Source: Bacteroidota bacterium (lineage in GTDB: Bacteria; Bacteroidota; Bacteroidia; Chitinophagales; Saprospiraceae). From it: a DNA stretch of 64,000 nucleotides. Below are positions 3,024 to 53,178 of the stretch, in pieces. The position numbers and the translations under genes are program-made. Location: contig JAKQJD010000337.1 in the NCBI GenBank assembly GCA_029561355.1, positions 1-64,000 of the forward strand. The letters run 5' to 3'. The stretch's first letter is position 1. Each line of letters opens with the position of its first letter. Under the pieces are notes generated by a model. The model was not told where the DNA came from. It was given only the letters and a program-made list of their open reading frames with translations, and ran no database searches.

Positions 3024-3130
3024 GTGTTTGGGGTGTGGTGTTTGGTGTTTGGGGCGCGTTGCCCTTGGCTTGATGAATAGAAATACCGGAGGCAACGCGC
3101 CCCAAACACCAAACACCACACCCCAAACAC
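3024..3130. repeat. Long inverted repeat between convergent genes, GTGTTTGG class, likely bidirectional terminator
   Basis: Arms 3024-3063 and 3091-3130 are a perfect 40-bp inverted repeat around a 27-nt loop. The outer part is made of the words GTGTTTGG/GTGTGGT and the inner 12 bp is GC-rich. The left arm starts four bases after the TGA of the amidohydrolase and the right arm ends at the base before the DUF58 stop codon, so the element fills the whole gap. The same arm words recur at 9540-9643 and 13916-14020. Confidence 0.9.
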
Positions 3131-4444
3131 TCAAATCAGTCCTCTCGATTTCAGTTCCAAATACTTGTTGATCGTATTCAGCGTCAAATCCTCCGGCCGG
3201 GTGAGTACTGCCTGAATGCCGTACTGCCGGAGTTTGATGACCATTTCTTTTTTGTCCTGCAAAAATTGGCGGGCGACGGTCTGGCGATAGATATCGGCCG
3301 TTTTTTGCACGTCTTCGGAAGCCAGTTTTCGTATTTCCGTGTTTTCGAAAAATACCACTACGAGCAGGTGTGAACGGTTGAGCCGGCGCAGAGTCGGCAA
3401 AGCGCGTTCGAGTGCGTAACTGCTTTCAAAATTGGTAAACAGGAGCAGCAAAGAGCGCATACCGATCAATCGTCGCACACCTTCGTAGAGCAATTCGTAA
3501 TTGGCTTCGCCGGGGCGTTCTTTTTCCCGGTACAGCGATTCCAGGATACGTTTCAACTGGCTGCTGTCGCGCTCGGCTTTGAGTGTAGCGCCGATGACAT
3601 CGGAGAACGTGAGCAGCCCGGCCTTGTCCTGTTTTTTCAGAATGATGTTGCTGATCGCCAGCACCGTGTTGATGGCATAATCCATCAGACTAAGGCCTTC
3701 GAACGGCATTTTCATCACCCGGCTTTTGTCGATGATGCAGTACACCTGCTGGCTGCGTTCGTCTTCATACTGGTTCACCATGAGCGTGGCGCGGCGGCTG
3801 GAGGCCTTCCAGTTGACGCTGCGGTAGTCGTCGCCCTCCACGTAGTTTTTGATTTGCTCGAATTCGTAACTGTGGCCGATCCGGCGCATTTTTTTGATGC
3901 CCGTTTCGTGCGCGATGTGCTGCATGGCCCGCAGTTCGTATTGCTTCATCTGGATAATGGACGGGTAAACGGCCACTTCCTGCGGTTGTTTAAAAACCAG
4001 TTTGCGCTCGGCCAACCCCAGGCGGGTAGAAGCGAAAACGTTGATATTTCCAAAATCATAAACGCCGCGCGATAACGGCCGCAGCACGTGTTTCGCCAGA
4101 TAGGGTTGTCCGGGCGGCAACTCGCAATGAATTTCGAAATCACGCTGCTGAAATTGAGGCGGCAGTTCGTCGGTAATCGTCAGATTGAAATATATGTTTC
4201 CCTGATTTTCAACGGCAATGATCACTTCATTCGGGTCGCTCAACGAAAAAACGGTACTCAACCTTCTTTCACAGGCAATTTGTGGTTTCCGAAGATAGAG
4301 CAACAGCACGTCGGCCAGCAAAAGTGCAGCCCCTGCCCCCAGCGCAATCTGCGCCATCGGAAACAGCCAGCCAAACGGATATGCCAGCGCAAAAAGGGCC
4401 ATGATGGCGCCGAGAATCCAGAAAAAGCGGTTGGTCAGGTACAT
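3131..4444 (-). CDS. DUF58 domain protein, membrane anchored
   Basis: 437 residues. Two hydrophobic segments near the N-terminus (about 8-25 and 30-50) anchor it in the membrane. A beta-rich middle follows, then the DUF58 signature around residues 195-230 (YVEGDDYRSVNWKASSRR) and a von Willebrand A-like region starting at CIIDKSR. In the family, DUF58 proteins usually sit beside a MoxR AAA ATPase and transglutaminase or VWA genes. None of these is present here, so this copy is an orphan and its partner must be elsewhere. The ATG at 4444 is directly preceded by a repeat-filled gap, so any promoter lies in or beyond that repeat. Role inferred only as a MoxR-linked chaperone or envelope factor. 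Confidence 0.85.
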   Translation of the reverse strand: MYLTNRFFWILGAIMALFALAYPFGWLFPMAQIALGAGAALLLADVLLLYLRKPQIACERRLSTVFSLSDPNEVIIAVENQGNIYFNLTITDELPPQFQQRDFEIHCELPPGQPYLAKHVLRPLSRGVYDFGNINVFASTRLGLAERKLVFKQPQEVAVYPSIIQMKQYELRAMQHIAHETGIKKMRRIGHSYEFEQIKNYVEGDDYRSVNWKASSRRATLMVNQYEDERSQQVYCIIDKSRVMKMPFEGLSLMDYAINTVLAISNIILKKQDKAGLLTFSDVIGATLKAERDSSQLKRILESLYREKERPGEANYELLYEGVRRLIGMRSLLLLFTNFESSYALERALPTLRRLNRSHLLVVVFFENTEIRKLASEDVQKTADIYRQTVARQFLQDKKEMVIKLRQYGIQAVLTRPEDLTLNTINKYLELKSRGLI

Positions 4445-4653
4445 GGGTGGTGGTTGGTGATTGGTTTTTAAGAGTTTATTGGTTTATGGTTTATGAGTTT
4501 ATGGTTTATTGGTTTATGGTTTATGGTTTATTGGTTTATGGTTTATTGGTTTATAGTTTGGTAAGGGTTAATCTGTTCCATTCCCGAGCGGCCAAATCAT
4601 AAACCTATAAACTCATAAACTCATAAACTCATAAACCCATAAACCTCATAACG
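4445..4653. repeat. Repeat-filled gap, GGTTTAT class inverted arms
   Basis: From 4465 to 4560 the plus strand is a run of variants of GGTTTATG/GGTTTATT. From 4596 to 4647 the complementary words ATAAACC/ATAAACTC recur about six times. The two blocks are inverted relative to one another, and the centre (4560-4595) has lost obvious pairing. The right edge is seven bases after the TAG of the amidohydrolase at 4654. It is related in word to the element at 11406-11525. Confidence 0.75.
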
Positions 4654-8961: not shown

Positions 8962-9531
8962 TCAATATTCCATCGAAAGGGGAAGATCTGCTTGTTGTGC
9001 GAGCAGCGCGGTTGGTCTAAAATTGTGAATGGCCTGAAGCAATTCGTTCAGGTCGCTTCTGAATTCCATGAAATAATCTTCGTGCAGCAAGGCTGCCTTT
9101 TTCAGCAGCATAGCGGTGCGGCGCACTACATATGGCGCGAAAGTGTCGTTGCGCTTGTCGGAAAATGAGCGCAGCATCACGATGTGCCGCCGGAAGGCTT
9201 CAGACAATAAAAAAGTGGTAAGAATCACTTCGCCAGGCTTGTCTTTGGTGGCCTGCACGTGTTCGGTGATGCGGGCGTTCCAGAAACGCAGTTCGAGGAG
9301 GAGGAGCCCGGGCGTGATGTACTTGTCGCCCGTTTTCGGGAGTTTTTGCACGATTTGTTCCCGCAGTTCCTGGGCGCGTTCTTCACGGGTTTCGCCACCT
9401 TCCAGCAGTTCGAATATCAACCGGCGGATCAGTTTCTGATCCTTGAGCAGCAGGCGCAGCAGGAGTTTGTCTTTCTCCTTCACAGGCATACGAAGCACGG
9501 CCGCTTTTAACTGTTCGTCAAGTTTGCGCAT
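8962..9531 (-). CDS. Unrecognised cytoplasmic helical protein
   Basis: 189 residues from the ATG at 9531. An upstream in-frame extension runs through the inverted repeat at 9540-9643 and is not believable as protein. No signal peptide or membrane segment. The sequence is highly helical and charged: the N-terminus has MPVKEKDKLLLRLLLKDQKL, the middle has EERAQELREQIVQKLPKT, and the rest alternates Leu and charged residues. I do not recognise the family. It is a lone gene between pckA with its downstream repeat and the secreted protein at 7533. A cytoplasmic helical-bundle protein is all that can be said. Confidence 0.65.
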   Translation of the reverse strand: MRKLDEQLKAAVLRMPVKEKDKLLLRLLLKDQKLIRRLIFELLEGGETREERAQELREQIVQKLPKTGDKYITPGLLLLELRFWNARITEHVQATKDKPGEVILTTFLLSEAFRRHIVMLRSFSDKRNDTFAPYVVRRTAMLLKKAALLHEDYFMEFRSDLNELLQAIHNFRPTALLAQQADLPLSMEY

Positions 9532-9539
9532 TTTTTCGA

Positions 9540-9643
9540 GTGTTTGGTGTGTGGTGTTTCGTGTTTGGGGCGCTATGCCCGGACTGTAGTTGCCAATGAC
9601 CAGCCGCAAAATATCCAAAAACGAAACACCACACACCAAACAC
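9540..9643. repeat. Inverted repeat after pckA, GTGTTTGG class
   Basis: Arms 9540-9568 and 9615-9643 pair with one mismatch in 29. Words are GTGTTTGG/TGTGTGGTG, as at 3024-3130. It sits ten bases after the pckA stop and eight bases before the start of the next minus-strand gene. Confidence 0.85.
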
Positions 9644-9652
9644 CGGAAAAAA

Positions 9653-11366: not shown

Positions 11367-11405
11367 GGAGGTTGTTGAGAATGTTGAGGGTTGAGATTGT
11401 TGAGA

Positions 11406-11525
11406 GGTTTATAGGTTTATAGGTTTATTTTCTGCCACTCGAAAAAGAAGAGTTCATTCATTTTTCGAGTGGCAGAAAATAAACCTATAAACCTATAAAC
11501 CTATAAACCTATAAACCTATAAACC
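11406..11525. repeat. Long inverted repeat overlapping the globin 3' end, GGTTTATA class
   Basis: Arms 11406-11446 and 11461-11501 are a perfect 41-bp inverted repeat with a 14-nt loop. The inner 20 bp is a unique stem and the outer part is GGTTTATA units: about three on the left and six on the right, since three further units run on to 11525. The TAG stop of the globin gene (11517-11519) lies inside the right-hand units, so the repeat supplies the last codons of that gene. Confidence 0.9.
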
Positions 11526-11912
11526 TTTTGCAGCAAACGGCCCGTCAAACTTCGGTTTCCAGGTTTCCGAAATAGCGAAAGCCCGGAATTTGGCCTGATC
11601 GGCTGTCGGACCTTCAAAAAGTTCGTCGACGGTCGATTGAAAAAGTTGGAGCCAGCGGTCGAAATCTGCCGCTTTCAGCGGATGCCGGGCGTGCAGGTCG
11701 AAGTGTTTCTGGATCGGGTTGCCTTGATAGCCACCGGAAATATCGAGTAGCAAGAATTCCCAGAACGCATACATCACAGGCAGGTGGTGTGCCCAGTCGA
11801 CCTGTGCGATATCATTAAAAATATATCCAATAACCTCGTCGGCGCGTACTTTCTGGTAAAAAAGGTCGATAAGCGTCCGGATATCGGCAGCATTTGTGAT
11901 GTCGTGTTTCAT
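11517..11912 (-). CDS. Group III truncated haemoglobin
   Basis: 131 residues, typical of the 2-on-2 globins. Features of group III are the N-terminal DIRTLIDLFYQKVRADEVIGYIF helix, the VDWAHHLPVMYAFWEFLL block, the proximal-His region HFDLHARHPL, and FDRWLQLFQSTVDELF. It binds haem and probably O2 or NO; roles in peroxide or NO chemistry are suggested in Campylobacter relatives. The last residues (KGL and the stop) are encoded by GGTTTATA repeat units, so the natural C-terminus appears to have been overwritten. It lies 10 bases downstream of the YgjP-like gene and is probably in one transcript with it. Confidence 0.92.
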   Translation of the reverse strand: MKHDITNAADIRTLIDLFYQKVRADEVIGYIFNDIAQVDWAHHLPVMYAFWEFLLLDISGGYQGNPIQKHFDLHARHPLKAADFDRWLQLFQSTVDELFEGPTADQAKFRAFAISETWKPKFDGPFAAKGL

Positions 11913-12654: not shown

Positions 12655-12663
12655 CTTTAGAAA

Positions 12664-12799
12664 GTGAGAAAAGTGAGAGGGGTGAGAGGGTGAGAGCCGA
12701 CTTCGATTCCGCCGCTTCGCTCTATTCTTCTCAATTCAGGTGCGAAGCGGCGGAATCGAAGTCGGCTCTCACTTCTCTCACCCCTCTCACCCTCTCACC
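12664..12799. repeat. Long inverted repeat after serC, GTGAGAGG class
   Basis: Core arms 12691-12720 and 12742-12771 are a perfect 30-bp GC-rich stem. Outside them lie GTGAGAGG/GTGAGAGGG words (12664-12690) and their complements (12772-12799). The right edge is within eight bases of the serC stop. A single arm of the same word class occurs at 39874-39907. Confidence 0.9.
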
Positions 12800-12806
12800 C
12801 TCTGTT

Positions 12807-13883: not shown

Positions 13884-13915
13884 TAATGACTATTTATGTG
13901 TAATGCGGGTAGTTA

Positions 13916-14020
13916 GTGTTTGGGGTGTGGTGTTTGGTGTTTGGGGGTGCTTTGCCCTTGGATTAAATTCTGCCCAAGAGCAAAGTACCCCCCAAACACC
14001 AAACACCACACCCGAAACAC
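13916..14020. repeat. Inverted repeat after the polyprenyl synthase, GTGTTTGG class
   Basis: Arms of about 39-40 bp (13916-13954 and 13981-14020) pair with two mismatches and one indel. The words match those at 3024-3130. The right edge is five bases from the stop codon at 14026. Confidence 0.85.
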
Positions 14021-14025
14021 CAACA

Positions 14026-25437: not shown

Positions 25438-28400
25438 TCAGTTCAACTGAAACTGCACCGTAATGCCCGAGCTCAGCGTCGTGATCGGGAACGACTGAGA
25501 GGTTTTAGGTACCGTTTTGCGGTAGTCGGTGAAGAAACGCAGTTTCAAACGGCGGTTCAACGCATACTCCACAGAAGGGTTGATACTGATCGTGCGGGCG
25601 CCGCGGGTCGGGATGGCTTCCACCAGCTGGTCGAGCTGGTGATTGATCGTGATATCGTCGCGCACCTCGAAGTCGAATTTGATATTCACGTCGTTCGGTT
25701 GCGAGCCGCCGGCTGCCGGAGCGGGACGGGTCGGAGAAGCATCGGGCTTGGGCGCCGGTTTTTTCTTCGATTTGCTGCTGCCTTTTTTAGCCTTTTTGCC
25801 GGTCAGGAACGGGATATTCACATCCTTGATGCGGTAGCCGAAGCCGACGGTATAACTTTCCGACTGCGTTTCTGCCAGGCGATAGTCGATGAACGACATG
25901 GCCAGCGTACGGCTTTTTTTCAGGTCCGTTTTGAAGGTCATCTCGTTTTTCAACTTGATATCGATGCCCAGCAGCGGTTGCAGTTGTTCGGTGATGACGA
26001 TCTGCGGTATTTCGTAGCGGGCGATATAGTTGGAGTTCAACGGGTCCACCTGGTACGTATTGCTCGGGTCGTAAAAAATGTCCGTGTTGTACGAATTGAC
26101 CGTCAGGGTACTTTTATACCCGTGCGAGATCTGCACACTGGCGAACACCTTACTCAGATTGCCCACTTTCGACAAACCGTTGTAGTTCACTTTCCAGTTG
26201 ACTGCCGGACGGGTTTTGAAGATATTCAGTCCAACCGTTTGCGGGTCGGCGTCCGAATATGCTGCAATAAATGCCGGAATCAGTACCTGTTGCTGGATTT
26301 TGCCGTAACCTCTTACGTAGCCTTCGTCGGTTTCGTGTGGATCTACGACGCCGATATCGGTACCCAGTCGCTGCGACACTACCTTGCGGTATTGTTCGTA
26401 GCGGTCGAAAATGCCGTTCAGGTCTTTGCTGAACAAGGTGTTCATGGCAAAGTAGGAAACGGTATAACTACCCAGGTCGCGTTGTGCGCGGTGTTCGAAC
26501 TGCACCTCGTTCGGGTCGAGCAGGAAGTTCTGGTCTTTGAACAACTCGGTAGAGTTGCGGGAATACTGTTTATTAGCCGTGAGTTCGACGCGGAAATCCT
26601 GGAACGGTTCGACGGTCAGGCCCGCATCGAAGTTCTGGGTGTAATTACGCGTCACCTGCTGGTTCAGTTCGGGACGTTGGGTGATCCATCCTTTTTGTCC
26701 AGCTTCATCCAGCCATTCAACACTGGGTTGAATACCTGCCACGAATGCCCAGCCCGGCGCCTTGAAACCTTCGCTGAGACCCATGAGTTTGGTATCGGGT
26801 GTGAAACCGGGCACCACCGTATTGAAATTCTCGCTGTACGTGAACCGGCCTTTCCGGACAAGCATCAGCGGGCGCAAAGCGATGCGTTCTGCGAGGGAAG
26901 GCTGGCGGTCTTTGCTTTTCGTTTTGGCGCTTTTATCGGACGAGTTTTTATCGTTCGAATTTTTGGCGCCTTTTTTATCCTCCGCACCGGCAGTTTTACC
27001 ATCTGCGCCGGCGGCAGGAGTCACGCCGTCCGTCGATTTGTCGGAAATATCCTTGGAATCGGAAGGTGCTTCCCGGCCTTTGCCGTCTTCCTTGCCACCC
27101 GGTTTTTTATTATTTCGCTTGCCCGCGGCTTTTCCGCCACCGTCGTCGTCGGGCGAAAGGCCGCCGGTAGATTTGCTGTCGTCGGCAGCGCCGGGCGTAG
27201 TTTTTCCTTTGGCGCCTTTTTTAGCGGGTTTGTTGATCTTTTGCAGGTACTTGCTCTTGTTGTACAAGCCTTCGAAGTTCAGGTCGCCGTTGATCTGCCG
27301 TGTGTTGTTATTTTGAATCACGTTACCCAGGCTGCGCGAATTCACGATGCCTGCATATTCTCCTGCATCCAGGTATTGCAATTTCAGCGACTGCGCCGTC
27401 CAGTTGTAACCGGCCGTGTAGGTTGCTTTCATCGAAATCCAGTCCATCATCGGGATCACCTTGAACGGCAGGGTCCAGTTGAGGCTGGCCGTGTGGTTGT
27501 AATTTTTCGGGCGGCCCAGTTTACCGATATTGGTCAGGATGGAATCGCGTCTTTCCGCCTTGGATACCGGCGTTCCGTCATTATTATACTCCAGCGGTTC
27601 GTCGATCAGGCTGCGCGCGGTGGCATCGAAGTTGAAACGTAGCGATTTGGAAATATCCCAGCCCAGATCGTAGTTGCGGTCCCAGGTGAATCGCCGGTTA
27701 TAATACGTGTTCAGCGAAGGATCTTCTCCGGCAAAACGGTACGTCGTCACACCTGCGAGGCGCTCCATATTCGTATTGATGCCATAGGTATTCGGGATCG
27801 GATTGAAATTGAAATCCGAAATGAATTTCAGGTACTTATCGTTTTTGATCAGTTTTTTGAACGGCGTGATCGGTTTCAAACCCGTTGCATACTGCCAGTC
27901 GAGCGCGCCTTTGTAACGGTTTTGCTCGTCGTTCACGAGGAATGGCGTACGGCGTTTTTGCTGGTTGTAAGCGTAGGTGACGCTAAAGTTTTCGATGTTC
28001 CAGGGCAGCGGGATTTTGCGGCTGCCGCCTTTGCGTTCTTTCCGGACGTTGGTGAAGTTGAAACCCTTGATGGTGGTCACATCCTGCGCCAGGGTACGGA
28101 TTTCTTCTTTTTTAGCCGGATCCGTTTCGTCGCGGATTTTGTCTTTCAGTTTGATGTCCAGGTCGTACGGGTCGTATTCCGGGTTGCGGGTAATGTTGGA
28201 ATACTGCGCGTAGAACGGAATTTTCACACCCGATTTTTCCGGCAGGAATTTGCCCAGTTCCAGGTTGGTGGAAGCGTCCATCTGGATCACTTCCTCGCGC
28301 TGGCGCTGAATGAGTTTTTGCTCGATGCTTCCCCAGCCGATACTCGTGTAATTGCCGGCCAGCGAGATATTGCCGAAATCGGCGAGTTTCATATCGACGC

Positions 28401-31400: not shown

Positions 31401-33168
31401 TACCCGGATCTTCATAATAGATGTCGAAACGGAATTCATTCGGGTCCACGTTGGCAGTACCGATCGCGTAGATGTTTTTCATCATCAGATCCCAGATAGG
31501 ATACTGGATGTTCGCGGTGGTGCTTTTCAGCATTTTTACGAACAGTACGTTGGTATTCAACGTGTCCTGGCTGCTGGTACGCGGGATATCACTCGAAAAT
31601 TCACCGATTTTATGGGGAATACCGTTGTAGGTATACTCGATGGCTACGCCGATCACCTGGTCGGGTTGTACGTTCAGGTTGACGCTCAGGAAGCCGAGTT
31701 GTTCGTTGTACGTATATTCGGAAGGCGACAGCAGGCGGCCGCTCATTTTTTCGAAATCCCTGATCTGCTGCATGCCGAGTTCGTTGGTCAGGCGGCGTAC
31801 GACCTTGTCGTTGTAACGACCCGTGGGATCGTCATTGAGTCCGTCCGTCAGTTCAGCATACAAACTATTGTTGTTGTTATCGGGGAGCGGCTTGTTTTTT
31901 ATATCCCGTTCAGGTGGTGAACCCAGTGCCCACTGGTCGTCGATGTTTGCGGTATCGGGTTCTGCCAGGTCGGTTACTGCCACAATATCACGGAACTGTT
32001 CGGTGGAGAGTTTGTCGTTGGTGATCCACACCTCCATCCGGGTGATGTTGAACAGCGACATCGGCACGGGCAGGCATTTCATAGCCGGCTCGAACTCATC
32101 ACGGTTGTAGTGGCTGATGAAGAAGTGGCGGTTTTCGTCGTATTCGTCGATGGGTTTTTCAAAGGACTGCACCTGCGAGCCGCCCTGAACAGTGAGGCTT
32201 TGCTGTTTGGAGCGCTGCTGGCTGGCGATAAGCGTTGTGCGCAAATGGCCGAATTTCAGTTCCGTTTTAAAACCGAACAGGTTCTGTGCGCCTTTGATGA
32301 GCTGCGAACGCAGGGGCATAGACACGTTGCCCGCCTCGATGTTCTGCACGATTTCATCTTCCGAAAAACCCTTCGTATCGTAGTTCAACTTCATCTGGTT
32401 GTCGAAGTCGAAGGTCGCCTGCGTGTTGTAGTTGAAGTTCAGGTTCAGTTTTTCACCGATTTTGCCGGACGCATTCATATTGATGTCCATGTCAAAATCG
32501 AAGTTGCCATTGCGCTGCTGACGGAGGGTCAGGATAGGATTCTGAATTTTCTGGTAGTCGAATCCAAACGTCAGGTTGATGTTACCCTGGGGTTTGATGT
32601 TCACTTCCGTGCCACCGAAAAGCCGGTCGATCAGGGAGTTCTTGATATCGAATTTGGCAATCGGGTCTACTACGCCGCTGCTGCTTTTTTTATCGGAAGA
32701 GACTACTCCCTGCAAGCGGTCGAAATATTCGTTTTGCTGCTTCTGATCCCGCCAGCGCACATATTCATCGAAGGTCATGTAGGTGGGAGCGCGGTAAAAA
32801 TCATCGCCGATCTTTTCCGTAATGATATACATACCCGTTTCGGGGTCGTAATCCACTTGTTGCTCGATGGCCTTGGGATCTTTCAGGTCCACAGGATTGG
32901 TACCTCCCGACTGTAAAAAGTCGTCGTACCGCTCCCGTATCGGAGGCAGGGTATCGGGCGGTGCAGCCACAGACCGGTCATGAGCCGCCGGTTCGGCCAC
33001 TGTTACAGCCGGCATATCTTCCGAATGGTCCGTTGCTACAGGCAAGGTTTTTTCCGGGAAAAAAATCGTCAACAGGTTGTCGCGTACACTTTCCGGGTAG
33101 GAAAATGCATAGAGCGCGCAAACCGATAGCAGGCAGATTGCCGCAGGAAGGAATTTCCTCTTCGTCAT
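25438..33168 (-). CDS. sprA: SprA, outer-membrane translocon of type IX secretion/gliding
   Basis: 2576 residues from the ATG at 33168 (a TTG two codons earlier is ignored). A signal peptide spans about residues 1-25. SprA signatures include INLTFGFDYQKIQNP, MDINMNASGKIGEKLNLNFNYNTQ, the repeated beta-strand pattern of a giant barrel, GTVYLDDFEGSTANLPL and the C-terminal STGITVQFQLN. SprA forms the 36-strand pore through which T9SS cargo leaves. Two Lys/Ser/Gly/Asp-rich low-complexity inserts stand out: about residues 1975-2095 (26880-27240) and about 2455-2495 (25690-25810). Cargo candidates with type B sorting domains are encoded on both sides. Followed by a terminator. Confidence 0.96.
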   Translation of the reverse strand: MTKRKFLPAAICLLSVCALYAFSYPESVRDNLLTIFFPEKTLPVATDHSEDMPAVTVAEPAAHDRSVAAPPDTLPPIRERYDDFLQSGGTNPVDLKDPKAIEQQVDYDPETGMYIITEKIGDDFYRAPTYMTFDEYVRWRDQKQQNEYFDRLQGVVSSDKKSSSGVVDPIAKFDIKNSLIDRLFGGTEVNIKPQGNINLTFGFDYQKIQNPILTLRQQRNGNFDFDMDINMNASGKIGEKLNLNFNYNTQATFDFDNQMKLNYDTKGFSEDEIVQNIEAGNVSMPLRSQLIKGAQNLFGFKTELKFGHLRTTLIASQQRSKQQSLTVQGGSQVQSFEKPIDEYDENRHFFISHYNRDEFEPAMKCLPVPMSLFNITRMEVWITNDKLSTEQFRDIVAVTDLAEPDTANIDDQWALGSPPERDIKNKPLPDNNNNSLYAELTDGLNDDPTGRYNDKVVRRLTNELGMQQIRDFEKMSGRLLSPSEYTYNEQLGFLSVNLNVQPDQVIGVAIEYTYNGIPHKIGEFSSDIPRTSSQDTLNTNVLFVKMLKSTTANIQYPIWDLMMKNIYAIGTANVDPNEFRFDIYYEDPGKGQKRFLGGENSADIPASIRSKPLLQLFRLDTLNLQGDPGPDGIFDFVPGLTINLRSGRIMFPVLEPFGSYLENKLLDAGAPQTVANKYIYKQLYDLTPFLAREFQQFNRFVLKGSYKSSTSSEISLGTFNLPQGSVRVTAGGQLLREGVDYQIDYNIGKVRILNDAILQSGQNVNVSFEDNTLFGFQSRTMLGARFDYELSKDINIGATYMNLFERPLTQKVNFGDDPINNKMYGLDFSISKDAPWLTKIVDKIPFIDTKEPSSISAQAEVAALQPGHNKAINQGGDKGGTVYLDDFEGSTANLPLSNPANSWVIASVPQGDLTEFPEGNDTSLALGANRAGLSWYIADPSARDGVDGENPYTTQIQYQDIFPNRQLTPLEQSALRPLDVTVYPRSRGPYNFDVPGGYPGISAGLTTSGELDQPATRWAGFMRGLNTNDFEAANIEFVEFWVLNPYMEKNDNTNVSDDGNMFIDLGTISEDIMRDSRQFFENTLPTGPGTGATAETPWGRVPVQTPVVNAFDNDPEKRILQDLGLDGLNDDGERTFFSDYVNAIMASSISPNAKDEILADVANDNFVYFRDSRFDGVNPGLLARYRHFNNQQGNSPVNNTDNLNPSATNLPDMEDLDRNNSLNENEAYYRYKINLKSSDQNVPNVPGAQIRGLDLNSPELQDLVTDTVIFQRNGQYYVWYRFKLPLDYQQRQQIGGIQDFRSVRFVRMLWKGFTEQTTFRFATLELGRNQWRRFKQALPQIDVPSGSVCDVGFSQIPFDINAVSIEENSARTPFNYTIPFGIQREQSVGAFPDILQNEQSLSMSVCSLGYCDARAVFKSLNLDLRQYENLKMFVHAEEQDLTTFPFDSSDLTVFMRLGSDYVNNYYEYEIPLHPSKIENLGTQGPDSKQYKEEVWKFQNSFDFPLELLTEVKKQRNASGNTEAIFVIQDPNNPRNKVKVVGNPNLGYVKGVMVGVRNVDPDQQLQCVEVWLNELRLSGFNERGGYAGLARVDMKLADFGNISLAGNYTSIGWGSIEQKLIQRQREEVIQMDASTNLELGKFLPEKSGVKIPFYAQYSNITRNPEYDPYDLDIKLKDKIRDETDPAKKEEIRTLAQDVTTIKGFNFTNVRKERKGGSRKIPLPWNIENFSVTYAYNQQKRRTPFLVNDEQNRYKGALDWQYATGLKPITPFKKLIKNDKYLKFISDFNFNPIPNTYGINTNMERLAGVTTYRFAGEDPSLNTYYNRRFTWDRNYDLGWDISKSLRFNFDATARSLIDEPLEYNNDGTPVSKAERRDSILTNIGKLGRPKNYNHTASLNWTLPFKVIPMMDWISMKATYTAGYNWTAQSLKLQYLDAGEYAGIVNSRSLGNVIQNNNTRQINGDLNFEGLYNKSKYLQKINKPAKKGAKGKTTPGAADDSKSTGGLSPDDDGGGKAAGKRNNKKPGGKEDGKGREAPSDSKDISDKSTDGVTPAAGADGKTAGAEDKKGAKNSNDKNSSDKSAKTKSKDRQPSLAERIALRPLMLVRKGRFTYSENFNTVVPGFTPDTKLMGLSEGFKAPGWAFVAGIQPSVEWLDEAGQKGWITQRPELNQQVTRNYTQNFDAGLTVEPFQDFRVELTANKQYSRNSTELFKDQNFLLDPNEVQFEHRAQRDLGSYTVSYFAMNTLFSKDLNGIFDRYEQYRKVVSQRLGTDIGVVDPHETDEGYVRGYGKIQQQVLIPAFIAAYSDADPQTVGLNIFKTRPAVNWKVNYNGLSKVGNLSKVFASVQISHGYKSTLTVNSYNTDIFYDPSNTYQVDPLNSNYIARYEIPQIVITEQLQPLLGIDIKLKNEMTFKTDLKKSRTLAMSFIDYRLAETQSESYTVGFGYRIKDVNIPFLTGKKAKKGSSKSKKKPAPKPDASPTRPAPAAGGSQPNDVNIKFDFEVRDDITINHQLDQLVEAIPTRGARTISINPSVEYALNRRLKLRFFTDYRKTVPKTSQSFPITTLSSGITVQFQLN

Positions 33169-33250
33169 TTTCAAAAAAGCAGGTGGATTTGTCTATTACT
33201 TACGCAAACGGATGAAATGACGCACGCTTGCAGGAATTGGTTGCCTGAAA

Positions 33251-33422
33251 GCAGTGCGAAGTCTGAAAGCAGTGCGAAGTCTGAAAACAGTGCGAAGTCT
33301 TCAGTGCGAAGTGCGAAGTCGTTGAAAGGTGAAGACTGTTGTAAAATTGTTGGAGAAATGAAGGAAGTGTCCATCGGTGCTGATGCCAAACGACTTCGTA
33401 CTGAAGACTTCGTACTTCGCAC
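33251..33422. repeat. AGTGCGAAGTC tandem and inverted repeat after the TolC gene
   Basis: From 33247 there are three tandem 18-bp units of the form GAAAGCAGTGCGAAGTCT, then a diverged TCAGTGCGAAGTGCGAAGTC. The complementary words lie at 33390-33424 next to the TolC stop codon, making an imperfect inverted repeat. The 17 bases around 33413-33429 are repeated at 49995-50011 beside another stop codon. Confidence 0.85.
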
Positions 33423-34769
33423 TTATTTGAGTTCATGAAGTTTGCCGGTCGTTTTCAGCAGTTTCAGAACGGCGAGTTTATAACTGAAAACCTGTTGCCA
33501 GTAATTGGTTTCGGCTTCGGAAAGCGCCGTTTGTGCATTCAGCAGGTCGGTGAGCGACACGACACCTTCCTTATATTGCAGCATCAGTTTGTCGCTAATT
33601 TCGCGTGCAAGGCCGACGTTGTCCGTTTGAGTACGCAGGCCACGCAGGGCATTTTGGAGTTGGTCGTGTGCCTGCCGGAACTCCAATTCCTTGGCGCTGC
33701 CGAGTTGTCGCCGGTCTTCGGCCAGTTTCTGTCCTTCGATGGCCAGAAAATCGGATTTATGCAAACGCCGGAACCCATCGAAAATAGGTACATTCATTTT
33801 AAGGCCGAGCGCGACGGCGCCATACCAGCGGCGTTCACTGTCGAAAAAATTCGCGTCGGGCCGGAAGGTTTGTGTAAAAGCGCTGGCATATGCGCTGAAG
33901 TTGGGCAGTCTTTCCGCGCGCAAACTGCTGAGTTGAATGCGATTCAGTTCGACCTGATGCAACAGCAGCCGAAATTCGGTAGTGGCTTCCGCAGCCAGCG
34001 TCAGTCCCTGCCAGCGCGCCGAATCGGCTGCCGGCGCCGCCATTTCTTCTATCGGATCGAATGCATCATCGTAAGAAACGCCGCACAAAAACTGTAACGT
34101 CTGACGCAAACCGCTGATGGCTGTGTACAGGTTCTGGCGTTGTGTTTCCAGGTTGGTATGCGCCACCTGAATACGTTTTACATCGGTGGGTATGGCATAT
34201 CCGTTGGCCAGTTGCAGCTTCGCCATGCGTTGCAGGGCATCCAGTTTGTCGAGGTTGGCATTCAGCGCCCGCAAAAGTTGCTCCGTTTGCAGGGTCTGGT
34301 AAAACACCGTGGCCGTCGTAAAAATGACGTCTTCTTCCGACCGTGTGATGAGCAGGTCGTAAATACTTCTGGAAACATTGGCAGCAGGTATCATGCGGCG
34401 GGCAGACTCGTTAAAAAGTTGCTGCTGCACGCTGAGAGAGCCTGTGAGTTGCCATGGCCGGCCGAACTGAACGGGCAGATAGGTATTATCTGCCATGCCG
34501 AACGGTTCTCCCGGAATAAGTTGAGTAGGTAAAACAGGCAGGTAATCTATACCTACGCCAAAGTTCACTTGCGGGAAAGCGCCGCTTCGCCCTTCCTGCA
34601 GGCGTTTTTCAATGCCTTGCCGGTCGAGTTGCGCTTTATGCAATTGCGCACTGTTGTCGAGCGCAAGGTGCAGGCTTTCGCCAAGCGTGATCGGGCGGAG
34701 CGTGGCGGGCTGAGCGTTGGTCGTTCCGATGAAAACGCTCCACAGCAGGATAGGAAACATACTTTTCAT
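33423..34769 (-). CDS. TolC-family outer-membrane efflux protein
   Basis: 448 residues from the ATG at 34769, with a signal peptide ending TNAQ. Two long helical repeats with TolC spacing are visible: LGESLHLALDNSAQLHKAQLDRQGIEKRLQEGRSGAFPQVN early, and the second copy EVELNRIQLSSLRAERLPNFSAYA later, each ending in the Pro-rich PxxN/PNFS turn. The C-terminus has YKEGVVSLTDLLNAQTALSEAETNYW. It should form the trimeric exit duct of an RND or ABC exporter or type I system. No membrane-fusion or pump gene is adjacent, so its partners are elsewhere. The start is uncertain: a promoter box only five bases upstream would favour the in-frame ATG at 34760. Confidence 0.9.
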   Translation of the reverse strand: MKSMFPILLWSVFIGTTNAQPATLRPITLGESLHLALDNSAQLHKAQLDRQGIEKRLQEGRSGAFPQVNFGVGIDYLPVLPTQLIPGEPFGMADNTYLPVQFGRPWQLTGSLSVQQQLFNESARRMIPAANVSRSIYDLLITRSEEDVIFTTATVFYQTLQTEQLLRALNANLDKLDALQRMAKLQLANGYAIPTDVKRIQVAHTNLETQRQNLYTAISGLRQTLQFLCGVSYDDAFDPIEEMAAPAADSARWQGLTLAAEATTEFRLLLHQVELNRIQLSSLRAERLPNFSAYASAFTQTFRPDANFFDSERRWYGAVALGLKMNVPIFDGFRRLHKSDFLAIEGQKLAEDRRQLGSAKELEFRQAHDQLQNALRGLRTQTDNVGLAREISDKLMLQYKEGVVSLTDLLNAQTALSEAETNYWQQVFSYKLAVLKLLKTTGKLHELK

Positions 34770-36235: not shown

Positions 36236-36277
36236 GGTGTTTGGTTTTTTATGTTTAGTATTTAGAAACCAAACACC
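36236..36277. repeat. Short inverted repeat, GTGTTTGG class
   Basis: Arms 36236-36247 and 36266-36277 (GGTGTTTGGTTT and complement) with an 18-nt loop. It lies about 95 bases after the stop of the NTF2-like gene and just upstream of the secreted-protein start. Confidence 0.6.
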
Positions 36278-38211: not shown

Positions 38212-38775
38212 ATGGCTTATACCGAATCGAATATGCTTCCCCTGGGCACCATTGCCCCTGATTTTGAATTGCCCGATCCCGTTACCGGTAAAAACCTGCG
38301 CCTCCACGATATTCCGCCCGGCCGGGCCATGGTGGTGATGTTTCTTTGCAACCATTGCCCATACGTGCTCTACGTCAATCCCGAAATTGTGCGCGTGGTG
38401 CATGACTACACACCACAGGGTGTTTCCTTCGTAGGTATCAGCAGCAACGACGTGGAAGCGCATCCGGAAGACGCGCCCGATAAAATGGCGGAACATGCCC
38501 ATTCCGCAGGATACAAATTCCCGTACCTTTACGACGAAACCCAGGAGGTTGCACGTGCCTACGATGCCGCCTGCACACCCGATTTTTATGTTTTCGACAG
38601 CGAAAGAAGGCTGGTGTACCGCGGGCAACTCGATGCGAGCCGGCCGAAACGAAATCCGGTTGAGAGTACCGGAGAAGACCTGCGCGCAGCTTTGGATGCG
38701 GTGATTAGCGGACAGCCGGTTTCACTGGTGCAGCGGCCCTCGGGTGGATGTAACATAAAATGGAAAAGTTATTAG
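38212..38775 (+). CDS. Thioredoxin-fold AhpC/TSA family protein
   Basis: 187 residues from the ATG at 38212. The redoxin domain has APDFELPDPVTGKNLRLHD, the reactive CNHCPYV pair (CxxC), VGISSNDVEAHPEDAPDKM and a cis-Pro in ACTPDFYVFD. The N-terminus has no signal peptide, so cytoplasmic. Relatives with CNHCPYV are widespread and poorly characterised. The last codon (TAT, Tyr) and the TAG stop lie within the first GTTATTAGTT unit of the repeat that follows, so the C-terminus has probably been altered by the repeat. Confidence 0.88.
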   Translation: MAYTESNMLPLGTIAPDFELPDPVTGKNLRLHDIPPGRAMVVMFLCNHCPYVLYVNPEIVRVVHDYTPQGVSFVGISSNDVEAHPEDAPDKMAEHAHSAGYKFPYLYDETQEVARAYDAACTPDFYVFDSERRLVYRGQLDASRPKRNPVESTGEDLRAALDAVISGQPVSLVQRPSGGCNIKWKSY

Positions 38776-38940
38776 TTCTTGGTTATTAGTTATCGGTTAT
38801 TAGTTATCAGGGTGGTTGAGGGACCATTTGTACTTATGTTTAGTCCACTCAATCAGATGGTCGGGAAATAAGTACAAATGGTCCCTCAACCACCCTGATA
38901 ACTAACAACCGATAACTGATAACTAATAACCACAAACAAC
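38773..38940. repeat. Long inverted repeat after the redoxin gene, GTTATTAGTT class
   Basis: Core arms 38800-38836 and 38869-38905 are a perfect 37-bp inverted repeat with a 32-nt loop. The flanks are GTTATTAGTTATC-like words on the left (38769-38799) and their complements on the right (38906-38935). It fills the gap between the redoxin stop and nadC. Confidence 0.9.
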
Positions 38941-39873: not shown

Positions 39874-39907
39874 CTCTCACTTCTCACCGTCTCACGCTCT
39901 CACTTCT
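39874..39907. repeat. Single arm of CTCTCAC words
   Basis: Four copies of CTCTCAC/TCTCAC-like words between nadC and the next gene. They match the outer flank words of the element at 12664-12799, but no complementary arm is visible nearby. Confidence 0.6.
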
Positions 39908-42671: not shown

Positions 42672-42756
42672 GACTATCCTGCTTCAGGAACCTTATAAGT
42701 CATCCGATGACTTAGAGTCATCGGATGACTTATAAGGTTCCTGAAGCAGGATAGTC
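42672..42756. repeat. Perfect 41-bp-arm palindrome
   Basis: Arms 42672-42712 and 42716-42756 are perfectly complementary with a 3-nt centre. The inner 17 bases (AAGTCATCCGATGACTT and complement) are themselves almost palindromic, so each arm can fold alone. It lies between the THX terminator and the DUF2147 gene, 37 bases before its start. Confidence 0.9.
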
Positions 42757-43216: not shown

Positions 43217-43219
43217 GAA

Positions 43220-43252
43220 AGTGCAAAGCCTGTAGTGCGAAGTGCGAAGTCG
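43220..43252. repeat. Single AGTGCGAAGTC-class arm after DUF2147
   Basis: AGTGCAAAGCC then AGTGCGAAGTGCGAAGTC, three bases after the TAG stop and between convergent genes. Same words as 33251-33422 and 49975-50008; no complementary arm here. Confidence 0.65.
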
Positions 43253-43289
43253 GTAGTGCCCCAGCATGGCAGGAATTAAGATGCATACC

Positions 43290-44847: not shown

Positions 44848-44920
44848 ATAAACCACAAAGGCACGAAGGCACAAAGTTTTGATATTCAAAACTTTGTGCC
44901 TTCGTGCCTTTGTGGTTTAT
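44848..44920. repeat. Long inverted repeat, ACCACAAAGGCAC class
   Basis: Arms 44848-44880 and 44888-44920 are a perfect 33-bp inverted repeat with a 7-nt loop. Words AACCACAAAGG and CACGAAGGCACAAAG. It ends 20 bases before the stop of the convergent peroxiredoxin-like gene. The outer words resemble those at 52890-52930. Confidence 0.9.
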
Positions 44921-48272: not shown

Positions 48273-49994
48273 ATGAACGTGTTACGACTTTACCGGAACC
48301 CCTGGATTTGGCTGGGCGCAGCATTGCTGGCTATTCTGCTGCGTGGTTTGTTGCTCGATGTCATGGACGTGGACGCCTCTCAATACGCGTCCATTTCCAT
48401 GGAAATGATGCAAAACGGGTCGTGGCTGGAGGTCAAACACCGTTTTGGAGATTATCTTGACAAGCCGCCGCTGCTGTTCTGGTCGTCGGCAGTTTCTTTT
48501 TTGGTTTTCGGACTGAGCAGCTGGGCATACAAATTACCATCCGTTCTGGGCGCTTTGGGTGGCGTATATGCCGTTTATCGCTTTTCCAGGCTTTTTTACA
48601 GCGAACAAACCGCCCGGCATGCCGCCTTTTTGCTGGCCTCCGCTACGGGTTTCATTGTGCTTTGCAACGATGTCCGCACAGATACACTTCTGCTGGGCAC
48701 GACGGCGCTGGCCGTATGGCAACTGGCGGAATACATGCAGTTTCAACGCTGGAAAAACCTGATCGGCGCTTTTCTATGCATCGGGTTTGCCATGCTGGCC
48801 AAAGGGCCGATTGGCCTGGTAGTGCCTGCGCTGGCTGCCGGGACACATCTTTTGTTGCAGCGCGACTGGCGCAACCTGTTTCGCTGGCAATGGCCGGCCG
48901 GCCTCGTCATCACTGCGGTGGTTCTATTACCGATGTGCTGGGGTCTTTACCAGCAGTTCGATCTGCATCCGGAAAAACCGCTCAACGACCGGATCAGCAC
49001 TTCGGGGCTGTATTTTTACTTCTGGGAACAAAGTTTCGGCCGAATTACAGGTAACAACGTTTGGCGCAACAACGCCGGGCCTTTTTATTTCCTGCACGTG
49101 TACCTGTGGGCGTTTTTGCCCTGGGCGCTGCTGGTGCCCGGCGCATTATGGTTCCACTTTCGAAATGCGTGGAACAAGGCGTTTAATTTTAAAAAATATC
49201 GTTTGGCGGAGGCGTTTTCGCTGGGCGGGTTCGTGCTGACGTTTATCGCCTTGTCTTTATCAAAATACAAATTGCCCCACTACATTTTCGTAACGCTTCC
49301 CTGGGCGGCTGTGATGGTTGCATCTTGGTTGAATGCGGATAAAAAAGCGGAAGTACCGGAATTGAAGCGTACAGTGCCGTTTTTTTGGGTTTTCGTCAGT
49401 TACACCACTTTTTTACTGGCACTCACGGCCGCTTTTTTGCTGATCGGCTTCGTTTTTCCGGGAAATTACTGGGGCTGGCTGGTGTTGAGCGGTGGAACCC
49501 TTTTCCTGCTGGCTGGAATTATTAAAAATCCGGTACAAATTTCTCCCGATACGCTGGTTCAAAGAGGTGTAATCGTTGCTATTCTCGCCGGGGTTACCCT
49601 GAATTTTCACTTTTATCCGCGCTTGTTGCCGTATCAAAGTACTTCCAACATCGGGCATTTTATTCAGCAAACCGGTATTCCGAAAGAAAAAGTGGCTTTT
49701 TTCCGGCGTCATGGCCATGCACTCGATTTTTATAGCCAAACCATCACGCGCCGGATGGAGAGCGCCTGGCAAATACAGGAAACGGCCCGCCGGGAAGGCG
49801 CGATTTGGGTGTATACCAACCAAAAAGGCAAGTCGGAGCTGGATTTGATGCAAGTACCTTACGAAATGGTATATGAAATGGGGCATTTCCAGACTGCACT
49901 GCTCAAGGGCCGCTTTCTGAATCCCGTTACCCGACAGCAGAGCCTGGAACCGGTGTGGCTGTTGAAAATTTCTCCACTTCGCACTTCGAACTGA
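48273..49994 (+). CDS. ArnT/GT39-like membrane glycosyltransferase
   Basis: 573 residues from the ATG at 48273; a TTG 21 bases upstream is disregarded. About eleven hydrophobic segments. The first loop has the acidic VMDVDASQYASISMEM and LDKPPLLFW, the hallmark of polyprenyl-phosphate sugar transferases. Such enzymes attach sugars or aminoarabinose to lipid A or proteins on the periplasmic face using a polyprenyl-phosphate donor; the acceptor here is unknown. The last five residues (LRTSN) and the stop are encoded by AGTGCGAAGTC-class repeat sequence. Confidence 0.88.
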   Translation: MNVLRLYRNPWIWLGAALLAILLRGLLLDVMDVDASQYASISMEMMQNGSWLEVKHRFGDYLDKPPLLFWSSAVSFLVFGLSSWAYKLPSVLGALGGVYAVYRFSRLFYSEQTARHAAFLLASATGFIVLCNDVRTDTLLLGTTALAVWQLAEYMQFQRWKNLIGAFLCIGFAMLAKGPIGLVVPALAAGTHLLLQRDWRNLFRWQWPAGLVITAVVLLPMCWGLYQQFDLHPEKPLNDRISTSGLYFYFWEQSFGRITGNNVWRNNAGPFYFLHVYLWAFLPWALLVPGALWFHFRNAWNKAFNFKKYRLAEAFSLGGFVLTFIALSLSKYKLPHYIFVTLPWAAVMVASWLNADKKAEVPELKRTVPFFWVFVSYTTFLLALTAAFLLIGFVFPGNYWGWLVLSGGTLFLLAGIIKNPVQISPDTLVQRGVIVAILAGVTLNFHFYPRLLPYQSTSNIGHFIQQTGIPKEKVAFFRRHGHALDFYSQTITRRMESAWQIQETARREGAIWVYTNQKGKSELDLMQVPYEMVYEMGHFQTALLKGRFLNPVTRQQSLEPVWLLKISPLRTSN

Positions 49995-50008
49995 AGACTT
50001 CGCACTTA
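49975..50008. repeat. AGTGCGAAGTC-class element between convergent genes
   Basis: Plus strand CACTTCGCACTTCGAACTG then AAGACTTCGCACTTA. It contains the TGA of the glycosyltransferase and the complement of the carbonic anhydrase stop, so both stop codons are within it. Words match 33251-33422. Confidence 0.75.
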
Positions 50009-50933: not shown

Positions 50934-51003
50934 TTTGAGGATATGAGTATTTGAGGATGCGAGGAGTCGAATCCCCAAATACTCGCATCCTCGAATCCTC
51001 GAA
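50934..51003. repeat. Imperfect inverted repeat, GAGGATGCGAG class
   Basis: Left words TTGAGGAT-ATGAGTAT-TTGAGGATGCGAG, right CTCGCATCCTCGAATCCTCGAA. The inner 13 bp pairs with one mismatch. It lies 38 bases after the SH3 protein stop. Confidence 0.75.
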
Positions 51004-51775: not shown

Positions 51776-52882
51776 ATGTCTGATCATCTTTTATACCAGA
51801 TTGCGCTTACGCTTGTCCCGCAGGTAGGCGCCATGACTGCCAAAAATCTGGTAAGTTATTGCGGGAGCGCCGAAGGCGTTTTTAAGGCCTCCCGAAGGGA
51901 GTTACTGAAAATACCTGGCATTGGAACAGTGGTTACAGATTCCGTACTGGCTGCTTCCACCCTTCACATCGCCGAGCGCGAAATGGAATTTCTGGAAAAT
52001 AACCGAGTAAATGCGGTTTTTTACACCGATGAAAAGTACCCTTCCCGGCTGAAACAATGCCCCGATAGCCCGGTAATGTTGTTTTTCAAAGGTTCTTCGG
52101 TGCAATTGCTCAACAGCGAACGCATTGTAGCCATTGTCGGTACCAGGCAACCCAGTGACTATGGGAAAGCCGTATGCGAAGAGATGGTGGAAGCCCTAAA
52201 ACCTTACAATCCGCTGATTATTAGTGGCTTGGCCTATGGAGTCGACATTACGGCACACCGGCAATCCAACATGCTCGATGTTCCAAACATCGGTATTCTG
52301 GGTCATGGTCTCGGAAGCATTTATCCCAGCCAACACCGCAGTATCGCCCTGAAAATGCTGGAAAACGGCGGTTTGCTCACCGAATACATCCACAGTGCCA
52401 AACCCGACCGCGAACACTTCCCGATGCGAAACCGGATTATTGCCGGAATGTGCGATGCGTTGATCGTGATAGAAACAGCAGCCTCGGGGGGATCCATGAT
52501 TTCGGCCCAACTGGCCTCCGATTACGGGCGCGACCTTTTTGCCATACCCGGGCGCACCAACGACCCGAAAAGTACCGGATGCAATTACCTCATTCAAAAT
52601 GGCAGCGCCCGGCTGACCTTGTCGGCAGCGGATATTGCGGATACCATGCGCTGGGAAGAAAATGGCAAATCTGCTCCGCGCCAGACGCAACTTTTACTCG
52701 ATTTGTCCACAGAGGAAGCCGTTTTGCTCGAAAGAATCAAGCAACAACCCGAAATTGCCATCGACCAACTTTCCGTAGCCACTCAAATGCTGCCCGGTGA
52801 ACTGGCTTCTACCCTGCTGGGGCTCGAATTCAAAGGCGCAATTCGCACGTTACCGGGAAAACGGTATATCGTACTGAGTTAA
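51776..52882 (+). CDS. dprA: DNA-processing protein DprA
   Basis: 368 residues. An N-terminal helix-hairpin-helix part (GAMTAKNLVSYCGSAEGVF, LLKIPGIG) precedes the Rossmann core: VAIVGTRQPSDYGKAVCEEM, ISGLAYGVDITAHR, GILGHGLGSIYPSQH, TEYIHSAKPDREHFPMRNRIIAGMCDALIVIETAASGGSM and FAIPGRTNDPKSTGCNYLI. A winged-helix DML1-like C-terminus follows (EEAVLLERIKQQPEIAIDQL). It loads RecA on incoming single-stranded DNA during transformation. The other competence genes are not in the window. Confidence 0.96.
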   Translation: MSDHLLYQIALTLVPQVGAMTAKNLVSYCGSAEGVFKASRRELLKIPGIGTVVTDSVLAASTLHIAEREMEFLENNRVNAVFYTDEKYPSRLKQCPDSPVMLFFKGSSVQLLNSERIVAIVGTRQPSDYGKAVCEEMVEALKPYNPLIISGLAYGVDITAHRQSNMLDVPNIGILGHGLGSIYPSQHRSIALKMLENGGLLTEYIHSAKPDREHFPMRNRIIAGMCDALIVIETAASGGSMISAQLASDYGRDLFAIPGRTNDPKSTGCNYLIQNGSARLTLSAADIADTMRWEENGKSAPRQTQLLLDLSTEEAVLLERIKQQPEIAIDQLSVATQMLPGELASTLLGLEFKGAIRTLPGKRYIVLS

Positions 52883-52889
52883 TTTTTTA

Positions 52890-53178
52890 TTTAACCACAA
52901 GGGACACAAACATGAGACATCCCGAATTTTATTCCCCTGCAAAATCGAAGCACAAGTGCCCCTGCCGCTGTTGTGCGTCCCCACCAACAGCAAGTTATGT
53001 TGAATTTCAGGCAGAATAAAGGATCAATTTGCCTGGCTTGGGTGCTTATTTGTCGTTGGCGGGGACGCACAACGACGGCCCAGGCGGCTCACATTACCCT
53101 TGATGAAGTGAAAACCTTGGCCAATAGCATCAGTACAAAAATTCGGGATGTCTCATGTTTGTGCCCCTTGTGGTTAAA
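52890..53178. repeat. Nested long inverted repeat filling the dprA/DUF1501 gap
   Basis: Outer arms 52890-52930 and 53138-53178 pair in 40 of 41 positions. Inner arms 52971-52988 and 53055-53072 (TTGTGCGTCCCCACCAAC and complement) pair in 17 of 18. Between them lie 40, 66 and 65 unpaired bases. The outer words (TTAACCACAAGGG, ACACAAACATGAGAC) resemble the element at 44848-44920. No gene is seen in the 310-base gap. Confidence 0.85.

Follow-up and report, generated by a model that had tools for sequence, protein, structure and literature searches.

Related repeats in other bacteria

The GGGAATC and GGGGA(C/T)T heptamers of Xanthomonas and Nostoc are, in the relevant passages of the report on them, intergenic 7-nucleotide (nt) G-strand words that are under-represented between divergent genes (PMC4692102). 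They lie at most 50 base pairs (bp) from a stop codon on the coding strand, or upstream of start codons on the other strand, and are nearest to the 5' neighbouring gene in any orientation; 70–75 inverted heptamer pairs are given for Xanthomonas (same passages of PMC4692102). Here, a system of intergenic inverted repeats whose arms are built of tandem words of 7–10 nt is described from a bacterium of the Saprospiraceae (Bacteroidota; GenBank assembly GCA_029561355.1). It came to notice in positions 1 to 64,000 of contig JAKQJD010000337.1, and this stretch of 64,000 nt is called the window throughout. Sampled loci are cited by L numbers and genomes by G numbers.

The strand rule of the Xanthomonas and Nostoc heptamers is matched by the repeats of the window genome, and their 7-nt unit by part of the families; units of 8–10 nt also occur here. 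Passages of PMC4692102 give one word type per genome, whereas at least ten word families were found here, most of them without GGG. The recurring core stem, the covariation and the private loops set out below are not reported in those passages. Another likeness is to the TAACTGA direct repeats of Beggiatoaceae, Cyanobacteria and some Bacteroidetes, since the GTTATCAG and GTTATTAG words are that heptamer and a variant of it on the other strand (as the heptamer is given in parts of PMC4679880). In the Beggiatoaceae genome TAACTGA forms mostly direct repeats just upstream of start codons, with a single inverted case (same parts of PMC4679880), whereas here inverted pairs flank a core and lie mostly after stop codons.

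Repetitive extragenic palindromic (REP) sequences and their REP-associated tyrosine transposases (RAYTs) resemble the present system in that the palindromes are intergenic, lie mainly in tandem and convergent gaps and fall into many families (passages of PMC3733652). REPs are described there as palindromes of 20–40 bp, tagged at the end by GTAG or CGTC and having a few main loop formats (PMC3733652). The elements described here have long word arms, cores and mostly private loops instead, and the REP form was not found among them, end tags being judged by eye. Bacterial interspersed mosaic elements (BIMEs) are grouped with the REP palindromes.

BrickBuilt, a miniature inverted-repeat transposable element (MITE) of Porphyromonas gingivalis, also belongs to the Bacteroidota, is intergenic and carries tandem units in a small inverted-repeat element; in the passages of PMC4596501 that describe it, it is a single family with a 23-nt minisatellite unit and short terminal repeats, and it lacks the loop between two word arms. 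Hairpins ascribed to template switching have perfect arms that are created or restored by copying, as is proposed for the present ones, but the cases in the relevant passages of PMC8794818 and PMC8604942 come from RNA genes and from coding genes of yeast, not from repeats dispersed through a genome. Among the matches listed from the open literature on such repeats, no description of this architecture was found, nor was any paper found there with ACCACAAAGGCAC as a literal word. The closest known kind is the GGGAATC heptamers of Xanthomonas together with REP and MITE elements, and the system is best filed with the G-strand heptamer repeats, as one with REP-like habits.

Structure of the elements

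The sample consisted of the window (contig C294, 51% GC) and 60 further stretches, together 618 kb of the Saprospiraceae-like window genome (G000; 6.83 Mb in 664 contigs). Gene positions came from a purpose-built dicodon gene caller, not from curated annotation. The 346 gaps of 40–700 bp were counted (62 of 408 were shorter or longer and were left out), and the controls were one dinucleotide shuffle of each gap (346) and 346 coding windows. An inverted-repeat score of at least 24 was found in 115 of the 346 gaps and a score of at least 14 in 170, and a score of 14 was reached by none of the 346 shuffled gaps and none of the 346 coding windows. Perfect arms were present in 28 of the 115 elements scoring at least 24; in 24 of these 28 they were at least 30 bp long, the longest being 64 bp. 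The repeat system is real, dense and unusual.

The elements follow one order: G-strand words, a core, a loop, the core again and C-strand words. The arms of the listed elements span 24 to 103 nt, and their outer ends are words. Intergenic tandem arrays, counted as Tandem Repeats Finder (TRF) rows with overlapping rows left unmerged, gave 162 rows of period 7, 112 of period 8, 69 of period 9 and 33 of period 10, with a total of six rows for periods of up to 6; coding arrays gave 26, 14, 40 and 11 rows for periods 7 to 10 respectively. The commonest words are each found in about 20 of the 408 gaps and seldom in coding sequence. When one mismatch was allowed, GGTTTATAGGTTTATAG had 258 matches genome-wide and its reversed control had none. 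The preliminary description of the window had called the inner stems unique. This had to be given up, as cores recur across the genome tied to particular words, GTGAGAGG with CCGTAGATTACACCGCTTCGCT or CCGACTTCGATTACACCGCTTCGC, GTGTTTGG with GGGCGCGTTGCCCTTGGC and GTTATTAG with AGTGTGGTAACCCTTGGC; the loops are the mostly private part.

Neighbouring word blocks within 250 bp of each other formed 110 pairs (low-skew blocks were left out of all block counts), of which 87 ran G strand then C strand, 4 ran C then G and 19 lay on the same strand. One word family, assigned by hand-made patterns, was present on both arms in 82 of the 87 G–C pairs (one of the 82 being unassigned on both sides), as against 15% expected if the arms were independent. 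In three core families, 293 of 298, 168 of 174 and 179 of 187 cells were paired, and at least two Watson–Crick pair types were seen at 20 of 20, 11 of 12 and 16 of 17 variable positions, so that variants alter both arms; the set was chosen by complementarity, and some of the variable positions are owed to the presence of two core types in the first family and to the loose alignment of the third. In a closest-partner test, also on elements chosen by complementarity, no arm came as close as an arm's own partner in 80 of 95 element-family entries, with 8 ties (family labels hand-made, 24 of 131 elements unassigned and families of fewer than five members left out).

Location and strand

Elements scoring at least 24 occupied 38 of 60 convergent gaps, 70 of 219 tandem gaps and only 7 of 67 divergent gaps. 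The first ten stretches had been picked for holding GGTTTATA words, and with these and the window left out the counts were 23 of 35, 40 of 131 and 6 of 42 respectively. A preference for gene 3' ends, which had been set beforehand as a test of the preliminary description, was borne out in the sample by these counts. At the 146 gene ends with an element (a convergent element was scored at both ends), the element started a median of 13 nt past the stop codon, and 110 of the 146 lay within 40 nt. In tandem gaps, the stop was nearer than the next start in 60 of 70 cases, with medians of 10.5 and 52 nt.

Of 237 blocks, 210 have their G strand pointing away from the gene closest to them. This rule is forced by geometry in paired blocks; the unpaired blocks, some of which may be decayed hairpins, are the real test, and 74 of 88 obeyed it. 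It was also followed by 128 of the 146 blocks without GGG. At L205:2431-2571 and L209:7613-7751 an element separates two tRNA genes of the same strand that lie about 140 nt from each other, and the L200 element sits 3' of a tRNA gene.

Loops, half-elements and distribution

Among 131 elements scoring at least 20, the 109 with loops of at least 12 nt were compared and the 22 with shorter loops were left out. The 71 loops of 12–60 nt gave 4 similar pairs at E < 0.01, and 16 of the 71 matched some loop of any length, several of the 16 being only 12–13 nt long or made of words. The four similar pairs comprised a AGTGCGAAG-word hairpin with a shared loop (L047/L060), a non-word palindrome family (L045/L049), words left inside the loop (L007/L047) and a 12-nt match. 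Loops are mostly private to their site, and arms are common to many sites. A shared interior of the MITE type was absent from most word hairpins and present in L003/L009, L017/L051 and L047/L060. Nested hairpins were seen at L005, L043 and L045, where the loop of a GCGGATT-word hairpin encloses a ACCACAAAGG-word hairpin; a GCGTAGATTACACC-like core is present in L005 and L043.

A search with one core pattern across 84,980 species genomes returned 17 loci. Four metagenome-assembled genomes (MAGs) named as Saprospiraceae or Bacteroidetes account for 16; the 17th, in Dyadobacter, looks like a chance match. By eye, no second arm was present in the 110 nt displayed at L198, L206 and L207, the same core stood on AGTGCGAAGTC words at L210, and mixed hairpins were seen at L203 (second arm of GGTTTATA type) and L213 (second arm of GTGTTTGG type). 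At L199 and L204, both from one MAG, the loop, right arm and right flank are common and the left flank differs, which would fit either a copying event or a chimeric assembly join at the words. Within the genus, the core was found in 5 of 42 genomes, including the window genome with 39 matches, and the triple word GGTTTATR was found in 2 of 296 genomes of a phylum sample, again including the window genome. Element density ranged from about 2 per 10 kb (G006 and G015) down to none in 10 of 20 same-genus relatives, of each of which 14–63 kb was sampled.

Turnover between related genomes

The related genome G006 is about 73–84% identical to the window in the longer matches. In 27 gap pairs, some of them empty on one side, no element was common to the two by eye, and at 4445, 9619, 12655 and 33169 both hold word elements whose words or cores differ. 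G007 and G009, in 9 and 7 contigs respectively, share 95% identity across about 180 kb. Entire hairpins distinguish them (171439 in G007 and 177372 in G009), and at 175752 in G007 a gap with common flanks holds a different, unrelated word hairpin in each genome. In 200 kb of G007 there were 17 intergenic hairpins, most of them not of the word type, of which 11 were alignable in G009 and 6 were not. Target-site duplication was assessed on two clean hairpin events only, which are TA-like, the word ends being fuzzy. Several insertions of a 116–176 bp family were also seen in G009 (L187–L196), between TATA-like sites (TATAGTCAACGCAAATCAG..CTCTTTAATCTGGGTATA), with G007 lacking them at the same places; this family looks like an active MITE.

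Origin of the hairpins

The best explanation, to which we give about an even chance of being right, is that the elements are dispersed one-armed repeats which are folded back locally by template switching, are near-perfect at birth and then decay and turn over. The starting unit would be a half-element made of several G-strand words of 7–10 nt followed by a core of 10–25 nt, dispersed and non-coding, lying at gene edges and oriented so that the G-rich strand points outwards from the gene. At most sites a polymerase would have switched template locally and used such a half to synthesise its own second arm (fold-back synthesis), and the product would be a hairpin with the arms of a genome-wide family and a loop private to its site. 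Hairpins would start out nearly perfect, their pairing would be eroded by ordinary mutation, and entire elements would be lost or replaced within about 5% divergence. Their clustering after stop codons would come mainly from tolerance of them there, or from insertion there, and not from their being terminators.

Template switching is a known process (PMC8794818, PMC8604942) and can make perfect stems in one event, according to passages of PMC8794818. Fold-back copying of one half should yield arms of one family around a private loop, whereas transposition as a unit should give shared loops and independent insertion should give mixed arms. The preliminary description had argued that perfect stems need a mechanism that copies one arm to the other; the same-family pairing, the mostly private loops and the covariation speak for this part of it. 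Also counted in favour of fold-back are the excess over chance, the G-then-C order of word blocks, the closest-partner result, the half-elements and mixed hairpins, the turnover between G007 and G009 and the absence of a G.U preference. A wider proposal, that ten or more unrelated kinds of word-plus-core halves at gene edges undergo fold-back genome-wide and that most such seeds become near-perfect, private-loop hairpins in place, is advanced more tentatively.

A number of results weigh against fold-back copying. The 11 hairpins aligned between G007 and G009 showed 30 one-sided and 3 two-sided changes (8 and 2 of them at the swapped locus), so that arms are not continuously corrected; on these counts, neither arm-to-arm copying as a standing process nor continuous concerted evolution of arms is supported. 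Five changes at 144252 in G007, all in one arm, look like templated correction; taken together, hairpins look to be born perfect and then to decay, rather than to be constantly mended. In a local-score test without complementarity selection, an arm's own partner ranked first in only 38 of 87 cases and in the top three in 58 of 87, so arms are related beyond the family level, not uniquely. When all 109 loops were compared, 53 similar pairs involving 42 loops were obtained, against 1 pair after shuffling, many of them being words or nested hairpins in long loops. The GCGGATT pair L003/L009 has 197 nt in common, in opposite orientation, and L017/L051 has a 120-nt interior in common; together with the shared loop of L047/L060, these indicate that some copies move as units. 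Two perfect hairpins of 58–60 bp were gained or lost whole between G007 and G009 and resemble ordinary small insertions. The mixed hairpins, in addition, could be assembly joins.

The alternative that survives best, though we consider it unlikely, is that the hairpins are mobile elements of the MITE or REP type, in which a transposase moves the full palindrome and loops diverge very fast. It would account for the whole-unit gain or loss in G007 and G009, the TA-like targets of the GACTTG hairpins, the nested elements (52890 in the window), the long loops common to L003/L009 and L017/L051 and the one short loop common to L047/L060. It is opposed by the finding that short loops are mostly dissimilar while the arms of the same copies are highly alike, and by the existence of half-elements and mixed hairpins. 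Most of the genus carries genes for Y1 transposases, and the five genomes that lack them (G001, G002, G011, G013 and G018) gave a single hairpin between them in their samples; these five are, however, also small. Moreover, Y1 copies do not track hairpin density, as G000 is rich with 2 copies and no hairpin was found in the samples of G019, G012 and G023 with 9, 6 and 6 copies respectively, and RAYT copy number was rejected as a driver for this reason. One of the two Y1 copies of the window genome, a RAYT-like gene at L043:15434-15775, has its own palindromes of the GCCCTGAAGGGGCGCAAGC type beside it, which are different and separate from the word hairpins. No enzyme responsible for mobility was identified.

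Two further candidates were set aside. An origin by reverse transcriptase (retron or telomerase-like) was rejected after a search with PF00078 only, in which RVT_1 was absent from G000, G006, G010 and G015 and found twice in G016. Loss of SbcCD, a nuclease of palindromes, was considered as a permissive factor, as the SbcD cut-off was passed by just 4 of 31 genomes, but the window genome has adjacent genes at L047:6940-10469 for an 801-amino-acid protein with Rad50 as its best NCBIfam match and a 375-amino-acid protein with Mre11 as its best match, both under the curated cut-offs. Judged by these matches the pair is likely a divergent Mre11/Rad50 complex, and the idea was therefore dropped.

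That selection maintains the elements as working transcription terminators or as stabilisers of mRNA 3' ends, the former being the role proposed in the preliminary description, is improbable as a general account. Their nearness to stop codons (within 40 nt at 110 of 146 ends) and the richness of convergent gaps would fit it. A T run directly 3' of the element was found at just 4 of the 146 gene ends, however, and sense-strand mismatches in tandem gaps were 57 G.U and 72 A.C (two-sided p 0.22); with G.U not above A.C, there is no sign of selection keeping RNA pairing. When the element was masked, terminator-like sites were present at 13 of 146 ends with an element (3 when shuffled; 89 free bases per end) and at 43 of 193 ends without one (11 when shuffled; 140 free bases per end). 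This deficit speaks in favour of such a role, and it comes partly from less free sequence; per free base it is modest and not significant (about 0.1 by a rough binomial reckoning). Without masking, the counts were 32 of 146 and 43 of 193, against 15 of 146 and 7 of 193 after shuffling; of the 32 sites, 18 fell within the element, which favours a terminator role, 13 before it, which does not, and 1 after it. The two elements between same-strand tRNA genes, the orthologous gaps that are often element-free and the same-genus samples that hold none also speak against it. The terminator reading is not supported, and a terminator or stabiliser role at some sites is possible.

G-quadruplexes or other G-strand structures, which have been suggested for the Xanthomonas and Nostoc heptamers, are a very improbable basis: the strand rule and location match those in passages of PMC4692102, but blocks free of GGG obey the rule just as described above, and four G3 runs occur in only 14 of 237 blocks, 13 of them made of GTTTAT words, and the quadruplex was rejected as a general explanation on these grounds. 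Least credible of all is the idea that the hairpins are inverted chimeras made during library preparation or assembly of short-read MAGs, which the 664 contigs of the window genome and the possibly chimeric join of L199/L204 might suggest, since hairpins are also present in G007 and G009 with their few contigs, the same core is found in several assemblies and coding windows held no hairpin.

Elements in the window

The preliminary description had named 15 sites in the window. An inverted repeat with an arm of at least 12 was found at 12 of them (3024, 4445, 9540, 11406, 12664, 13916, 33251, 36236, 38773, 44848, 50934 and 52890), and 39874, 43220 and 49975 proved to hold a word block only, with no inverted repeat scoring 10 or more. 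Its long perfect stems were confirmed, with runs of 42 bp (11405-11446/11461-11502), 40 bp (3024), 38 bp (38773), 35 bp (44848) and 31 bp (12690); an extra perfect run of 41 bp was found at 42672, outside its list. The weakest sites were 36236 (12 bp), 50934 (perfect run of 9) and 4445 (perfect run of 8). Proximity to stop codons was upheld for 10 of the 12 repeats, which overlap a predicted stop or sit 0–34 nt from one, and not for 36236 and 50934, whose nearest stops are 93 and 48 nt away; the block at 39874 is closer to a start than to a stop.

Three hairpins are built of GTGTTTGG words. The first, at 3024..3130, has a GGGCGCGTTGCC core, 40-bp perfect arms and a 27-nt loop and is flanked by two stop codons; the second, at 9531..9652, has 38-bp arms that are 92% complementary, touches the stop at 9653 and faces a GAGGATGCGAG-word hairpin in the counterpart gap of G006; the third, at 13912..14024, has a GGGGTGCTTTGCCCTTGG core and lies 1 nt from the stop at 14026. 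At 4467..4651, weakly paired words of the GGTTTAT type have their G strand at 4474-4559 and C strand at 4597-4651, in a tandem gap where they adjoin the stop of the gene ending at 4654, before the start of the gene at 4444; the G006 counterpart gap holds GTGTTTGG-type words. At 11372..11526, GTTGAG words precede a GGTTTATA-word hairpin that has 42-bp perfect arms and a core ending in CCACTCGAAAAA; words overlap the stop at 11517. The GTGAGAGG-word hairpin at 12661..12803 has a CCGACTTCGATTCCGCCGCTTCGC core and 31-bp perfect inner arms, and in G006 the counterpart gap holds GTGAGTA words and a different core. An imperfect hairpin of AGTGCGAAGTC words lies at 33245..33431, with the stop at 33423 6 nt away, and its counterpart gap in G006 holds GGTTTGATGG words.

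Downstream, a weak member with a short 12-bp hairpin (GGTGTTTGGTTT) is found at 36236..36277. The GTTATTAG/GTTATCAG-word hairpin of the TAACTGA heptamer family, with a AGGGTGGTTGAGGG core, occupies 38768..38937, overlaps the stop at 38775 and is absent in G006. Of the lone blocks, in the first two of which no second arm was found, the GTGAGAG-type block at 39875..39907 has its G strand on the minus strand, just 5' of a start codon, and the AGTGCGAAG word block at 43219..43259, on the plus strand, begins 2–3 nt past a stop; a third, of the AGTGCGAAG type, at 49975..50007, has its G strand on the minus strand and lies between or overlaps two stops. A hairpin of a different family (GTCATCCGATGACT), with 41-bp perfect arms, lies at 42672..42756, 3' of a terminator-like hairpin (by eye). 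The ACCACAAAGGCAC-word hairpin at 44848..44920 has 35-bp perfect arms and a 3-nt loop and lies about 20 nt from the stop at 44941, and the GAGGATGCGAG-word hairpin at 50934..50995 is 83% complementary. Finally, a ACCACAAGGGACAC-word hairpin at 52883..53185 has arms of 41–48 nt and a 207-nt loop, which encloses a second hairpin (52964-52993/53050-53079) of a family also present in L059.

The window also contains one open frame of about 2577 codons on the minus strand (25438-33168). Matches at the Rfam gathering score in the window and 8 of the 60 sampled loci were two tRNAs, one RNase P RNA and one DUF805b RNA, and no element was matched. The DUF805b RNA motif, at L003:3529-3565 on the minus strand, shares its gap with the element at 3687-3765 and lies outside it.

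Biological meaning

Tandem heptamers and palindromic repeats have been known separately in several phyla, no origin or role being settled in the papers cited above, and the window genome joins both. Many unrelated words there share one strand rule and one architecture, and as words without GGG follow the same rule, the quadruplex is weakened as a general explanation. Shared arms with mostly private loops amount to a concrete prediction on the birth of the hairpins, and as two genomes of 95% identity already show a swap, a few close strains could be informative on this point. If the wider, genome-wide proposal is true, the palindromes would arise incidentally from the way in which this lineage replicates or repairs its DNA and would not be mobile units, and the strand rule of the heptamers in Xanthomonas and cyanobacteria could be explained in like manner, with no part for quadruplexes.

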